Below are positions 29,787 through 34,859 of a stretch of DNA of 64,000 nt, one piece after another; positions within the stretch are counted from its first letter, which is position 1; each line of letters opens with the position of its first letter. Position numbers and translations under genes: made by a program. The DNA comes from Comamonas terrigena NBRC 13299 (lineage in GTDB: Bacteria; Pseudomonadota; Gammaproteobacteria; Burkholderiales; Burkholderiaceae_C): assembly GCF_006740045.1 (NCBI RefSeq), contig NZ_AP019749.1:2189001-2253000 (forward strand), in the 5' to 3' direction. The notes under the pieces are model-generated. The model was given only the letters and a program-made list of their open reading frames with translations, had not been told where the DNA came from and did not search any database.

Positions 29787-30524
29787 ATGAGCCAGAAAGT
29801 AGCGTATGTGACCGGGGGGATGGGTGGCATTGGTACGGCCATCTGCCAGCGCCTGCATCGTGAAGGTTTCAAGGTCATTGCCGGCTGCGGCCCGACACGC
29901 GACTTTCAAAAGTGGTTGGATGAGCAAAAGGCACTGGGCTACAACTTCCACGCGTCGGTTGGCAATGTGGGCAACTGGGAGTCGACGGTCGAGGCCTTTG
30001 GCAACGCCAAGGCCGAGCACGGCAGCATCGATGTTCTGGTGAACAACGCCGGTATCACCCGCGACCGCATGTTCCTGAAGATGACACCCGATGACTGGCA
30101 GGCGGTGATCGAAACCAATCTGAACTCCATGTTCAACGTGACCAAGCAGGTCGTGGGTGACATGGTGGAAAAGGGCTGGGGTCGCATCATCAACATCAGC
30201 TCGGTCAACGGTGCGAAGGGCCAGGCCGGCCAGACCAATTATTCGGCCGCCAAGGCCGGCATGCATGGTTTCACCATGGCCCTGGCGCAAGAGCTGGCCA
30301 ACAAAGGCGTGACGGTGAATACCGTGAGCCCGGGTTACATCGGCACCGACATGGTCAAGGCCATCCGCCCTGACGTGCTGGAGAAGATCGTGGGCACCAT
30401 CCCCGTGAAGCGCCTGGGTGAACCCGGCGAAATTGCCTCCATCATCGCCTGGCTGGCATCGGACGAGGGCGGTTATTCCACCGGTGCCGACTTCTCGGTC
30501 AACGGCGGTCTGCACATGCACTGA
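29787..30524 (+). CDS. phaB: Acetoacetyl-CoA reductase PhaB
   Basis: A 245-residue short-chain dehydrogenase that reduces acetoacetyl-CoA to (R)-3-hydroxybutyryl-CoA with NADPH. Seen are the nucleotide-binding VTGGMGGIGTAIC, NNAG (in VLVNNAGITRDRMFLKM), the catalytic Ser-Tyr-Lys (ISSVNG ... TNYSAAKAG) and the PhaB-typical end YSTGADFSVNGGLHMH. AACAGGAG precedes the start. The 240-bp spacer from phaA leaves room for a separate promoter, and two terminators follow. Confidence 0.96.
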   Translation: MSQKVAYVTGGMGGIGTAICQRLHREGFKVIAGCGPTRDFQKWLDEQKALGYNFHASVGNVGNWESTVEAFGNAKAEHGSIDVLVNNAGITRDRMFLKMTPDDWQAVIETNLNSMFNVTKQVVGDMVEKGWGRIINISSVNGAKGQAGQTNYSAAKAGMHGFTMALAQELANKGVTVNTVSPGYIGTDMVKAIRPDVLEKIVGTIPVKRLGEPGEIASIIAWLASDEGGYSTGADFSVNGGLHMH

Positions 30525-30673: not shown

Positions 30674-30701
30674 AAAAAAGCCCACGCAAGTGGGCTTTTT
30701 T
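30674..30701. terminator. Bidirectional terminator
   Basis: AAAAAA-GCCCAC-gcaa-GTGGGC-TTTTTT is symmetric, so it can stop transcription from both sides. On the minus strand it is the first terminator after the 24-codon gene at 30894-30820, and on the plus strand it backs up the phaB terminator. Confidence 0.85.
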
Positions 30702-30819: not shown

Positions 30820-30894
30820 TTACAGGCGTGCGGGTGCGCGCTTGCGGTCACGTTCGTCTTCAGGCCATGCGGACAGGATGTCGGTCAGGTTCAT
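30820..30894 (-). CDS. 24-aa mini-protein, copy 1 of 3
   Basis: A 24-codon frame on the minus strand starting at the ATG at 30894 with AAGGAG 9 nt upstream. It reads MNLTD then ILSAWPEDERDRKRAPAR and ends in Leu. The same core recurs in two more frames at 31313 and 31727. Synonymous codon differences between the copies, an identical leader segment GCACAAGGAGT and in-frame stops at the same place argue that the peptide itself is selected. The protein is hydrophilic with a hydrophobic N-terminal third and an Arg/Lys-rich end. No function known to me. A bidirectional terminator lies about 120 nt downstream. Confidence 0.75.
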   Translation of the reverse strand: MNLTDILSAWPEDERDRKRAPARL

Positions 30895-31032
30895 ACGGTT
30901 TTCACTCCTTGTGCATCTTCAACGCGTGGCCCGCAGCACGGGTTGACGGTCAGGATGCAAGCAGGTGCATGCAAAAGTGAACGAGTGTGTAAACGCCCCA
31001 GGTTGGAGGATGCCGTGCACCACGATGGTGCC

Positions 31033-31068
31033 ATTGGCATTGGCATCGGCATCGGCATCGGCATTGCC
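31033..31068. repeat. Hexanucleotide tandem repeat
   Basis: Six consecutive hexamers: ATTGGC twice, ATCGGC three times, then ATTGCC. They lie in the upstream region of mini-gene copy 1, about 140 bp before its start. Such tracts can change length by slippage. Confidence 0.75.
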
Positions 31069-31132
31069 GCGCGACGGTGATGACGTTGAAGTTTTGTGGT
31101 CAGCGGTGTGTACTACGCTTGGTAGCGACAAC

Positions 31133-31156
31133 AAAAAACCCGCCAGAGGCGGGTTT
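31133..31156 (-). terminator. Terminator of mini-gene copy 2
   Basis: AACCCGCC-aga-GGCGGGTT with an A6 run on the plus strand, hence T6 after the stem on the minus strand, about 85 nt beyond the stop of copy 2. Confidence 0.85.
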
Positions 31157-31238
31157 CAGAGTGGGTAATGTCGTATCTCAGCGCACAAACTGTGCAGCGG
31201 CAGCGGCAGCGGTCGGCAAGTGCCGGCACGGCATTTGC

Positions 31239-31313
31239 TTACAGACGTGCAGGTGCGCGCTTGCGATCACGTTCGTCGTCAGGCCAGGCAGACAGAATGG
31301 CGGGGGTTTGCAT
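31239..31313 (-). CDS. 24-aa mini-protein, copy 2 of 3
   Basis: A 24-codon frame from the ATG at 31313: MQTPA followed by ILSAWPDDERDRKRAPAR and a final Leu. The ribosome binding site AAGGAG is within a leader (GCACAAGGAGTGA) matching copy 1. A GTCAACCCGG element sits about 55 nt upstream of the start, as in the other copies. Its own intrinsic terminator follows, so it is a separate short transcript rather than part of an operon. Confidence 0.8.
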   Translation of the reverse strand: MQTPAILSAWPDDERDRKRAPARL

Positions 31314-31652
31314 ACGAATTCACTCCTTGTGCTGCTTTAACGTCCGTTATGCAGGCCGGGTTGACACACTGCGCGCAAAAGAGCGTCGAAAATGACAGGG
31401 GAAAGGTGAGTAGATCTGGCTTTCAGGGCCGGCATCGCCCGCATCTTGCTCTGGCGCCGGTGGATGGCGTTGTGTGTTGCACCAGCTCGGCACACTGGCA
31501 GGCTCCATGAAGCACAAAGCCCGCCGAAAGCAGGTTCAGGCGGGCTGGGTTGTGTAGCAAGGTGCGCGTAGAAAGTGGTGTGCCGGGCAGGGAACGCGCT
31601 CCCTGGTAAGCAGCCAGCATGCACGTGCTGGCGCGGTGCCTGTGGCAGGCTG
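31314..31652. other. Spacer between mini-gene copies 2 and 3
   Basis: It contains the leader of copy 2 and the hairpin that ends copy 3 (31514-31545). I see no other supported gene in these 339 bp. Confidence 0.5.
31514..31545 (-). terminator. Hairpin after mini-gene copy 3
   Basis: AGCCCGCC-N13-GGCGGGCT followed on the minus strand by TTTGTG. The 8-bp stem is close in sequence to the copy 2 terminator. The U-tract is weak. Confidence 0.6.
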
Positions 31653-31727
31653 TCAGAAGCGGGCTGGTGCGCGCTTGCGATCGCGTTCGTCGTCAGGCCA
31701 GGCGGACAGGATGGCGGTGGTATGCAT
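31653..31727 (-). CDS. 24-aa mini-protein, copy 3 of 3
   Basis: A 24-codon frame from the ATG at 31727: MHTTA, then ILSAWPDDERDRKRAPAR and a final Phe, stop TGA. AAGGAG with a GCACAAGGAGTAA leader precedes it. A longer in-frame start at 31907 exists, but the conserved ribosome binding site in all three copies places the real start here. Upstream, on the coding strand, lie GTGTCAACC and then the LexA-type palindrome at 31824-31839, which might control this copy. Confidence 0.78.
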   Translation of the reverse strand: MHTTAILSAWPDDERDRKRAPARF

Positions 31728-31823
31728 CTGGGTATTACTCCTTGTGCACCTCACAACGCGGCCCCGATCACCCCGGTTGACACATTTTGGAAATATTTCG
31801 TTGCCGATATAAAAATTTTTAAA

Positions 31824-31839: not shown

Positions 31840-32010
31840 TTCGCTGCAAAGCATTGGAACAGGCCGCCGCCTACAATCCACGGCTGTAGCTGGATAGGCA
31901 TTTCCATGCGCTGCTGTCAGCGTGTTGCTTGATGCGCCTATCCGTCCCCTGTGTTCTGCCAGGCGGGTGCCGCCTTGCATGGCGCGCTGCGCTGGCGGTT
32001 GGAAGTTTCC

Positions 32011-32688
32011 ATGTCTTTGCATACCTGGTTGTTGTTTGTTTCTCTGGCAGGCGCCGTGATTGCGGCGCCCGGCCCGTCGGCGTTGCTGTGCGTGACGCAT
32101 GCGGCACGCCATGGGGTGCGTCCGGCACTGGCCACCATCGTGGGCGGGATGACGGCGTCGATGACGCTGATGGGCCTGTCCGCGCTGGGTCTGGGGGCGG
32201 TGATTGCCGCATCGGACACGCTGTTTCACATCATCAAATGGGCAGGGGCCGCCTATCTGCTGTATCTGGGAATTGCCACTTGGCGCAGCCATGGTAGCGG
32301 CGCAGCGGATGATGCCGCTGTGCAGACGGCCGCCAACGCCAGTCCTGGCGCTCAAGATCACCAGCAGGCCGACCGGTCCATGTGGCGCACCTGGCGACCC
32401 CTGTACCGCAAAGGCCTGATCGTGGGCATTGGCAATCCGAAGGACCTGCTGTTCTTCAGTGCGCTGTTTCCGCAGTTCATGGACGCCAGTCTTCCCATTG
32501 CAGGGCAATTGGGCGTGCTGGCGTTGACCTGGCTGGTGCTGGACGGCGCCATCATGCTGGGCTATGTGCTGTGTGGTGCCACGTTGCTGGCGCGCCTGCA
32601 GCAGGGCAGCGCGGGCCGCTGGTTCCAGCGTGTGACCGGCGGCGCTTTCATTGCAGCCGGTGGGGTGCTGGCTGCGTCCCACCGCTGA
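32011..32688 (+). CDS. LysE/RhtB-family amino-acid exporter
   Basis: A 225-residue inner-membrane protein. It opens MSLHTWLLFVSLAGAVIAAP with the family hallmark APGPSALLCVTHAARHGVRPAL, has about six hydrophobic helices, and contains KWAGAAYLLYLGIATWRS and GLIVGIGNPKDLLFFSALFPQF, both LysE-typical. Substrates of the family are amino acids or homoserine lactones; the actual one is unknown. I chose the ATG at 32011 because the upstream extension lacks similarity. Confidence 0.88.
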   Translation: MSLHTWLLFVSLAGAVIAAPGPSALLCVTHAARHGVRPALATIVGGMTASMTLMGLSALGLGAVIAASDTLFHIIKWAGAAYLLYLGIATWRSHGSGAADDAAVQTAANASPGAQDHQQADRSMWRTWRPLYRKGLIVGIGNPKDLLFFSALFPQFMDASLPIAGQLGVLALTWLVLDGAIMLGYVLCGATLLARLQQGSAGRWFQRVTGGAFIAAGGVLAASHR

Positions 32689-32813: not shown

Positions 32814-34859
32814 TCAGGCCAGACCCGCGGCCTGGGTCAGCCCTTCGATTTCTTCGGTCAACTCCAGCCAGCGCTCTTCCAGCGCGTCCAGCTCGCTGTT
32901 GATGCTGCTGAGCTGCTTGCCTGCTTCCACAATGTCGGCACCGGACCGCCCGGGCATGGCCAACTCGGCTTCCAGCGCGTCGCGCTGGGCCGTCAGCTGG
33001 GGCATTTTCTTATCGATCTGCTCCAGCTCTTTCTTGAAAGGCTTGGTCTTTTCCGACAGCTGCTGGCGTGCGGCGGCAGCCAGCTTGCGCTGCTCCCGCT
33101 GGTCGCCTTGCGGGGCAGGCGCCGCAGATGGTGCCGCGGCGATTTCCACAGGTGCTGCCACCGGAGCCACCACGGCAGCGGCTGGAGCCGGTGCCGCAGC
33201 TGCCTGCTGCGCCTGGGCTTCTGCATGCTTGGCTTCTTCGCGCAGGCGCTTGGATTCTTCCAGCAGGTAGCGCTGGTAATCGTCCAGATCGCCGTCGAAG
33301 GGGCCGACCACGCCGCGGCCCACCATCCAGAAGTCTTCGCAGACGGCACGCAGCAGGTGACGGTCGTGGGACACCAGCATCACCGTGCCGTCGAAGTCGT
33401 TCAACGCCATGGCTAGGGCTTCGCGGGTTGCCAGATCCAGGTGGTTGGTAGGTTCGTCCAGCAGCAGCAGGTTGGGGCGCTGCCAGACGATCATGGCCAG
33501 CACCAGGCGGGCTTTTTCACCGCCGCTCATGGTCCCCACGGTCTGCTTGACCATGTCGCCGCTGAAGTTGAATGTGCCCAGGAAGTTGCGCAGATCCTGC
33601 TCGCGGCTGGGTTGCTTGGCATCCGGACCCAGATCGCGTGCCAGGCGGATCATGTGCTCCAGCGGGTTATCGCTGGGGCGCAGCACGTCCAGCTCCTGCT
33701 GGGCAAAGTAACCGATGTTCAGGCCCTTGCCTTCCGTCACTGAGCCGGCCAGCGGCTTCATGGTGCGGGCAATGGTCTTGACCAGGGTGGATTTACCCTG
33801 ACCATTGGCCCCCAGAATACCGATGCGCTGACCTGCCAGCACCGAGCGGTTCACGCCGGTCAGGATGGTGGTGGTCTGGCCCTCGTCGTCGGTATAGCCA
33901 AAGGCCGCATCGCTGATGGCCAGCATGGGGTTGGGCAGGTTGGCGGGCTCCTTGAATTCGAAGGTGAATTCGGCCTCGGCCAGCACCGGGGCAATCTTTT
34001 CCATGCGTTCGAGCTGCTTGACCCTGCTTTGTGCCTGCTTGGCCTTGCTGGCCTTGGCCTTGAAGCGGTCGATGAAATGCTGCAGGTGGGCCATCTTTTC
34101 CTGCTGCTTGGCAAAGCTGGCAGCCTGCAGTTCCAGCTGCTGCGCGCGCAGTTCTTCGAACTTGCTGTAGTTGCCGCCGTAGCGCGTGAGCTGGCCCTGC
34201 TGGATCTGCAGCGTGACGTTGGTGATCGCGTCCAGGAACTCGCGGTCGTGGCTGATCACGATCATGGTGCCCGGGTAGCGCTTGAGCCAGGCTTCCAGCC
34301 AGACCAGGGCGTCCAGGTCCAAGTGGTTGGTGGGTTCGTCCAGCAGCAGCAGATCCGACGGGCACATCAGGGCGCGCGCCAGCTGCAGGCGCATGCGCCA
34401 GCCGCCGGAAAAGCTGTCCACAGGCTGGTCCAGCTCGCTGGTCCTGAAGCCCAGACCCAGGATCAAGGCCTGGGCCCGTGCCTCCGCGTCGTGGGCGCCG
34501 GCATCATGCAGGTCGGAATAGGCCTGGGCAATGGCCATGCCGTCGTCGCTGGCCTCGGCTTCTGCCAGCTGGCGCTGCACTTCGGTCAGGCGGGTGTCGC
34601 CCTCCAGCACAAAGGCGGTGGCGCTCTGGTCGGTTTCTGGCATGTGCTGGGCGACTTCGGCCATGCGCCAGCTCGACGGAATGTGGAAGTCACCGCTGTC
34701 CTCGTGCAGCTTGCCGCTGAGCAGCGCAAACAGGGACGATTTGCCGGCCCCATTGCGGCCAACCAGACCCACGCTTTCGCCGGGGTTGATGGTGGCCGAG
34801 ATGTTGTCCAGCACCACTTTGGTGCCGCGGCGCAGGGTGACGTTGCGAAGGGTAATCAT
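32814..34859 (-). CDS. ABC-F family ATPase (YheS/Uup-like)
   Basis: A 681-residue soluble protein with two ABC ATPase domains. Walker A motifs are GRNGAGKSS (residues 34-42) and GANGQGKST (near 350); signatures are SGGWRMRLQLARAL and SGGEKARLVLA; both Walker B regions read LLLLDEPTNHLDL. The inter-domain linker (about 235-300) is rich in Lys and Gln helices. A C-terminal Ala/Pro linker and coiled coil (about 560-681) follow. ABC-F proteins act on the ribosome rather than in membranes. It is the last gene of the minus-strand run starting with dapC. Confidence 0.92.
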   Translation of the reverse strand: MITLRNVTLRRGTKVVLDNISATINPGESVGLVGRNGAGKSSLFALLSGKLHEDSGDFHIPSSWRMAEVAQHMPETDQSATAFVLEGDTRLTEVQRQLAEAEASDDGMAIAQAYSDLHDAGAHDAEARAQALILGLGFRTSELDQPVDSFSGGWRMRLQLARALMCPSDLLLLDEPTNHLDLDALVWLEAWLKRYPGTMIVISHDREFLDAITNVTLQIQQGQLTRYGGNYSKFEELRAQQLELQAASFAKQQEKMAHLQHFIDRFKAKASKAKQAQSRVKQLERMEKIAPVLAEAEFTFEFKEPANLPNPMLAISDAAFGYTDDEGQTTTILTGVNRSVLAGQRIGILGANGQGKSTLVKTIARTMKPLAGSVTEGKGLNIGYFAQQELDVLRPSDNPLEHMIRLARDLGPDAKQPSREQDLRNFLGTFNFSGDMVKQTVGTMSGGEKARLVLAMIVWQRPNLLLLDEPTNHLDLATREALAMALNDFDGTVMLVSHDRHLLRAVCEDFWMVGRGVVGPFDGDLDDYQRYLLEESKRLREEAKHAEAQAQQAAAAPAPAAAVVAPVAAPVEIAAAPSAAPAPQGDQREQRKLAAAARQQLSEKTKPFKKELEQIDKKMPQLTAQRDALEAELAMPGRSGADIVEAGKQLSSINSELDALEERWLELTEEIEGLTQAAGLA

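Follow-up and report, generated by a model that had tools for sequence, protein, structure and literature searches.

Three tandem 24-codon peptide genes in Comamonas terrigena with predicted ECF-type promoters and a probable link to a PRK09047-type sigma factor

Introduction

Between a phaB gene and an ABC-F ATPase gene of Comamonas terrigena NBRC 13299 lie three very short frames that resemble one another. Do these units act through their peptide or their RNA, and what drives their expression? We addressed these questions by analyzing the window that contains them (64,000 nucleotides of contig NZ_AP019749.1, assembly GCF_006740045.1, positions 2,189,001 to 2,253,000), the remainder of the genome, and related genomes. 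The best explanation, which taken as a whole we consider probable, is that they are three tandem peptide genes with their own predicted ECF-type promoters, read by a PRK09047-type sigma factor and encoding a peptide that would regulate a stress response.

Results and Discussion

Three peptide frames between conserved neighbors

A sequence-only reading of the window had described three tandem paralogous frames, and this observation was confirmed. All three are on the minus strand, with ATGs at 31727, 31313, and 30894, and each consists of 24 codons and a stop. Each copy is preceded by a leader of about 20 nt, and the ribosome site in it is strong.

31653..31727, minus strand: peptide frame of copy 1, MHTTAILSAWPDDERDRKRAPARF (frame reading and family protein search)
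31239..31313, minus strand: peptide frame of copy 2, MQTPAILSAWPDDERDRKRAPARL (frame reading and protein search)
30820..30894, minus strand: peptide frame of copy 3, MNLTDILSAWPEDERDRKRAPARL (frame reading and protein search)
31735..31747, minus strand: leader word of copy 1 with the ribosome site, GCACAAGGAGTAA (leader-word search)
31320..31332, minus strand: leader word of copy 2, GCACAAGGAGTGA (leader-word search)
30902..30914, minus strand: leader word of copy 3, GCACAAGGAGTGA (leader-word search)

The leader segment reported as common to all copies was recovered when GCACAAGGAGTRA was searched with at most one mismatch: the window contains three matches, all exact, against a mean of 0.14 and a maximum of 2 in shuffled sequences (0 of 100 shuffles reached three). 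Elsewhere in the genome, which is one contig of 4.67 Mb, no further convincing peptide copy was found; the sole additional match had an E value of 0.8 and an internal stop. The earlier statement that the family has no known name agrees with searches of Pfam and NCBIfam, in which the 24-amino-acid peptides had no match over the cut-off (the best Pfam match was subthreshold, E 0.11). The suggestion that such frames are missed by annotation is right in part: databases do contain a longer relative, of 40 amino acids, under the name hypothetical protein (C. testosteroni TK102 and Delftia sp. PS-11).

The neighbors and terminators of the array are as follows.

29787..30524, plus strand: phaB (acetoacetyl-CoA reductase, named from sequence), convergent neighbor
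32814..34859, minus strand: ABC-F ATPase gene (named from sequence), conserved neighbor on the other side
31520..31534, minus strand: terminator-like stem of copy 1 with a weak T tail (terminator scan)
31135..31157, minus strand: clear terminator of copy 2 (terminator scan)
30674..30697, minus strand: clear terminator of copy 3, AAGCCCACTTGCGTGGGCTTTTTT, between copy 3 and convergent phaB (stricter search)

Among the loci of the protein search tested for neighbors (L005 to L033), phaB was present in 27 of 29 and the ABC-F gene in all 29. One or the other lay within 2.5 kb in 63 of the 80 loci listed from a DNA-pattern scan of a named collection. Of the same loci, 17 had neither gene within that distance (two of these, L083 and L108, probably matched by chance), and a reading of TTGCATTTTTTTGC as a PhaR site, prompted by the adjoining phaB, was dropped. 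A gene for a LysE-type exporter (named from sequence) occupies positions 31951 to 32688 of the window, where it separates the array from the ABC-F gene; among the 80 loci listed, such an exporter is close to the peptides only in L084, L095, and L125 (C. avium, C. denitrificans, and C. aquatica). The spacer after copy 2 contains hexamer repeats, with 5.5 copies of CATCGG at 31032 to 31064 and 3.2 copies of GCAGCG at 31194 to 31212.

The units had been described as short and separate, each with its own terminator. The first part of this description is supported; the second stands for copies 2 and 3 but not for copy 1, whose stem has just 6 pairs and a poor T tail and for which the stricter search returned nothing. 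The scan gave 4 terminators in the region compared with 2.1 ± 1.3 in shuffles, so that terminators alone are weak evidence. A simple search placed a terminator within 300 nt in 47 of 76 units among the matches listed.

Short frames, a strong ribosome site, nearby stem-loops, and tandem copies would also be seen if these were leader peptides involved in attenuation or type I toxin genes. However, the next gene is the convergent phaB, and there is thus no downstream gene to lead; the peptides also have no run of a single amino acid or of control codons. They are charged and without a hydrophobic stretch, which does not fit a toxin, and a sigma-70-like promoter for an antisense RNA was sought with no site found. 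We give either identity almost no probability.

A predicted ECF-type promoter ahead of each frame

The sequence-only reading had also noted a GTCAACC element about 50 nt upstream of each start. The element is present, with GTCAAC beginning 54, 52, and 53 nt upstream of the ATGs of copies 1, 2, and 3, but the best interpretation makes it the −35 box in a predicted ECF-type promoter, GTCAAC-N17-CGTT, whose CGTT had been overlooked.

31776..31781, minus strand: predicted −35 box of copy 1, GTCAAC (family alignment)
31755..31758, minus strand: predicted −10 box of copy 1, CGTT, 17 nt after the −35 box (family alignment and the SigAb promoter as given in the available part of PMC12153292)
31360..31365, minus strand: predicted −35 box of copy 2, GTCAAC (sequence reading)
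31339..31342, minus strand: predicted −10 box of copy 2, CGTT (family alignment)
30942..30947, minus strand: predicted −35 box of copy 3, GTCAAC (sequence reading)
30921..30924, minus strand: predicted −10 box of copy 3, CGTT (family alignment)

An alignment of 40 upstream regions of the family, which includes one (L056) later judged to be a terminator, gave the consensus (T)GTCAAC-N17-CGTTG with a T-rich tract ahead of it; the tract is weaker in the window copies, most in copies 2 and 3. Behind the promoter the alignment has a conserved CA, whose A is nine bases past CGTT and is likely the start site, and then the ribosome site. GTCAAC-N17-CGTT was found in 35 of 35 protein-search units with a spacer of exactly 17 nt, in a search that allowed 15 to 18. 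Among 14 further members from the protein search (a count that omits L356, and to which L073 contributed no member), 13 have the promoter and the 14th has GTCATC. The strict form GTCAAC-N15-19-CGTT occurs in 81 of 95 pattern-found matches, among the matches listed. The 14 exceptions comprise four with GTCATC, three with GTAAAC, three second cistrons behind GTAAAC, one with CATT as the −10 box, one cut by the end of its locus, and two (L083 and L108) without a start codon. GTCATC serves as the −35 box in L082, L131, L114, and L127, three of which are in Curvibacter-named records and distant from phaB. On these alignments, the predicted promoter is a constant part of the peptide family.

We had at first read CAACG...CGTTG as a conserved hairpin in an RNA leader rather than as a promoter, and the two boxes do form imperfect inverted repeats in most members. 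However, the 17-nt spacing is constant in all 35 units, and the outer base that follows GTCAAC varies across the 40 sites (25 have G, 14 have C, and 1 has A), while C-G is kept at the position ahead of GTT. Both boxes also precede unrelated genes and agree with a promoter that has been mapped in Acinetobacter baumannii. The hairpin reading was dropped because of the constant spacer and this promoter match, and we now regard it as very improbable.

The mapped promoter is that of SigAb. Mutagenesis, as described in the available text of PMC12153292, defined a −35 box GTCAAC, a −10 box CGTT, a 17-bp spacer (16 nt is tolerated), and an A/T-rich UP element. Both boxes and the 17-nt spacer agree exactly with the predicted promoter of the peptide family, and all three window copies have the two boxes at this spacing. 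In the same excerpts SigAb is termed Acinetobacter specific, its direct targets are sigAb, relA, and the small RNA SabS, and its inducer is copper stress. The regulons are alike, as far as that text goes, in having a short gene behind the same type of promoter, SabS (a main direct target) there and the peptide genes here; they differ in that SabS is described as a small RNA, whereas the Comamonas short genes encode a conserved peptide.

Selection acts on the peptide

The comparison with SabS brings in a rival reading of the product: that the units are regulatory small RNAs like SabS, with the frame incidental or a minor second function. A small-RNA role had also been proposed in the sequence-only reading, next to selection on the peptide. 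The latter was borne out by comparison of codon differences. Between codons 6 and 23, the three pairs of window copies differ by 5 to 6 synonymous and 0 to 1 replacement changes (pN of 0 to 0.02 versus pS of 0.37 to 0.44), and codons 2 to 5 change freely. Across 34 unique family cores from protein-search loci, pN/pS is 0.098; pN is somewhat reduced in this set by its selection for W-P and acidic residues. The pattern-found set was excluded from this estimate because the pattern itself fixes core residues. These substitution patterns indicate that the peptide is under purifying selection.

Besides the SigAb precedent, in which the available text of PMC12153292 has this type of promoter directly driving a small RNA, the shortness of the units and a codon bias in the core would favor the RNA: one core Glu codon is GAA in 32 of 34 cores. 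The predicted copy 2 transcript, terminator included, folds better than shuffles (z of −2.1; 3 of 200 shuffles fold equally well). Together, the GAA bias and this folding make some RNA constraint possible. Against the small-RNA reading, the 3' untranslated region (UTR) is less conserved than the core. For 55 distinct units of the pattern set, identity averages 0.88 over the core (shuffled, 0.60; the pattern fixes some of these residues), 0.62 over the leader (shuffled, 0.52), and 0.58 over the spacer (shuffled, 0.54), and over the initial 40 nt of the 3' UTR it is 0.57, equal to the shuffled value. Since the 3' UTRs resemble one another no more than shuffled sequences do, a small-RNA role is not supported. 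In addition, the ribosome site is strong and at a constant distance, and Rfam gave no match in the window at the gathering score. At three loci of the C. denitrificans group, two peptide frames lie behind a single GTAAAC-N17-CGTT promoter, and no promoter could be recognized by eye for the second; retention of this second frame is explained by selection on the peptide and not by selection on an independent RNA. We therefore hold the small-RNA reading to be unlikely and read each unit as a short, putative stress gene that looks like a small RNA gene but, judging from its codons, is selected as a peptide.

Distribution of the family

Occurrence in related genomes was observed. In a sample of 299 genomes of the same GTDB family, the protein search found the peptide in 40, representing 16 of 141 genera. 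The family core is WPx[DE][DE]RDRKR, and a tail such as APAR is optional. The DNA-pattern scan of the named collection gave at least 119 stretches, and all 80 loci listed were read; among the matches listed, the record titles are mostly Comamonas, Delftia, Acidovorax, Simplicispira, Giesbergeria, Curvibacter, and Xylophilus. Most of the 76 listed loci with a readable frame carry one copy (63 loci), 11 carry two, and two carry three. In L107 and L134 the promoter is present, but no ATG was found from there to the core. One record named Pantoea (L148, NZ_CACSJA010000005.1) has the peptide amid phaA, phaB, ABC-F, and prmB as in Comamonadaceae and is probably misnamed.

Diverged members, WPEDERDRRR and WPSDDRDRRR, were found through the promoter in genomes G012 and G039; they are inside the same GTDB family and had been missed by the protein search. 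Candidates set aside were G000:C1:1427431, probably a chance match, and L039, L050, and L056, which have a spacer of 18 and resemble a terminator before an envelope gene.

No convincing member was found outside the GTDB family by a profile search of 300 order-level genomes. Thirteen of these matched at an E value of ≤0.05, and the eight outside the family (E 0.009 to 0.04) are probably chance. A pattern that combined the promoter and the ribosome site matched 14 of 399 genomes, with eight outside the family; a backwards control pattern also gave eight hits, so these extra-family matches look like chance as well. A search of plasmids gave no match.

A PRK09047-type sigma factor as the likely reader

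The genome contains 22 matches to sigma region 2. The candidate among them is an ECF sigma factor at G000:C1:1567651-1568250, which scores 268.8 bits against PRK09047 (NCBIfam NF006550; cut-off, 173), a family whose name carries no function or target. The next genes encode DUF3619 and then DUF3106, a layout that resembles the order sigAb-aabA-aabB (sigma factor, membrane anti-sigma factor, periplasmic protein) given in the accessible part of PMC12153292. Homologues, followed for the PRK09047 type only, are present in 70 of 274 class-wide genomes. Of the best 30 class-wide homologue loci, 14 have the strict motif in sense orientation within 400 nt upstream and none has it in antisense; the other windows taken from these loci, about 466 in number, gave 13 hits. 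The DNA-reading segments of the candidate and its aligned homologues are similar. These comparisons make it likely that the PRK09047-type ECF factor reads the peptide promoters.

The sigma factor is present in 40 of 41 peptide genomes, with G016 having no sigma match. It is also in 32 of 38 genomes without a peptide from the protein search (two of the 38, G012 and G039, later gave the diverged members), and the co-occurrence is therefore not specific. In one genome, the PRK09047 sigma gene is split over two adjoining frames (G003:C1:1491032-1491600), by decay or sequencing error.

A different sigma factor, such as RpoE/AlgU or another ECF factor of the genome, could read the same promoters, with the peptide genes otherwise as described. 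The number of sigma matches in the genome leaves room for this, and the PRK09047 gene is itself without such a promoter in the same family: autoregulation was sought there and the motif was found before the sigma gene in 0 of 30 loci. In this it differs from SigAb, which regulates itself according to the available text of its study. In contrast, the motif is upstream of nearly half of the best class-wide homologue loci, as given above, and upstream of 0 of the 21 other sigma genes in the genome. Moreover, the boxes of Escherichia coli RpoE (GGAACTT and approximately TCAAA) and of Neisseria sigma-E differ from these, as given in the parts of PMC12153292 and PMC2893595 available. We consider a different sigma factor unlikely, though less so than the small-RNA reading, and proceed with the PRK09047 type as the likely one.

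Other genes behind the promoter

In a promoter profile search of 20 genomes, the peptide genes ranked first. Weaker sites precede genes for a small secreted Ala/Lys-rich protein, a secreted YVxPP-repeat protein, and a YncE-like propeller protein, and it is from these genes that an envelope-stress role is inferred. The Ala/Lys-rich protein occurs in several genera (L242, L243, and L255, with the frame read; L246, L248, and L256, with only the start read; L336 and L340), and the one such protein tested had no match in Pfam or NCBIfam. The YVxPP-repeat protein is behind weaker matches in L251 and L253 and the propeller protein in L245 and L254. In the genome of the window, a weak promoter site (E 0.05) is ahead of a gene whose product is predicted to be secreted and contains a Gly-rich segment.

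Sixteen genomes without a protein-search hit yielded 18 promoter-pattern sites in 11 genomes. Four of the sites precede a protein of 53 to 59 amino acids ending in DRKR, two precede a diverged peptide, and two precede the secreted Ala/Lys-rich protein; about half of the 18 have no convincing gene. The 53- to 59-amino-acid protein, from Roseateles/Pelomonas-type genomes, has the same promoter in 4 of the 16 genomes (L338, L339, L342, and L345). It is longer than the 24-amino-acid family and does not have the WPx[DE] part, and the two are likened by the promoter and the DRKR end. A 53-amino-acid representative has 35 database relatives, some of them entered under Roseateles and Pelomonas as hypothetical proteins, and none has a Pfam domain.

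A broader generalization is possible, and we offer it tentatively as one that may well prove too wide. The PRK09047/DUF3619/DUF3106 system may be an ECF stress system of Burkholderiales, one main output of which is very small cytosolic proteins that share a DRKR signature (WPx[DE][DE]RDRKR, about 15 to 40 amino acids, in Comamonadaceae; 53 to 59 amino acids in Roseateles-type genera). These would stand in the place of SabS, alongside a few secreted envelope proteins, and would perhaps feed back on the sigma/anti-sigma pair, transcription, or translation.

Proposed mechanism and significance

We propose that each unit consists of a GTCAAC-17 nt-CGTT promoter, a leader of about 20 nt, a 24-codon frame, and a terminator that is clear for two of the three, and that the three promoters would be read by the PRK09047-type sigma factor. 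By analogy with SigAb in Acinetobacter, envelope or metal stress may free this factor. The peptide produced would be charged and cytosolic, and it probably forms a short helix with a Trp-Pro cap. Such a capped helix agrees with the residue order of Trp-Pro, acidic, and then basic, and for the 40-amino-acid relative P0157 one helix was predicted over residues 4 to 34 (mean pLDDT 65, low confidence). As a small regulator, such a peptide may tune the stress response by way of a protein or RNA partner, and the tandem copies would raise its dose.

The promoter class is already known. In the literature searched, no description was found of DDERDRKRAPAR, DERDRKR, DUF3619, or PRK09047, or of DUF3106 with a sigma factor, nor was the peptide family or its link to the promoter found described. 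A sigma factor family for which that search found no paper is now linked, as the likely reader, to a promoter that was mapped experimentally in another genus. For an overlooked peptide family, the analysis supplies a predicted promoter, the probable stress regulator, and a regulon open to testing across a large group of environmental bacteria.
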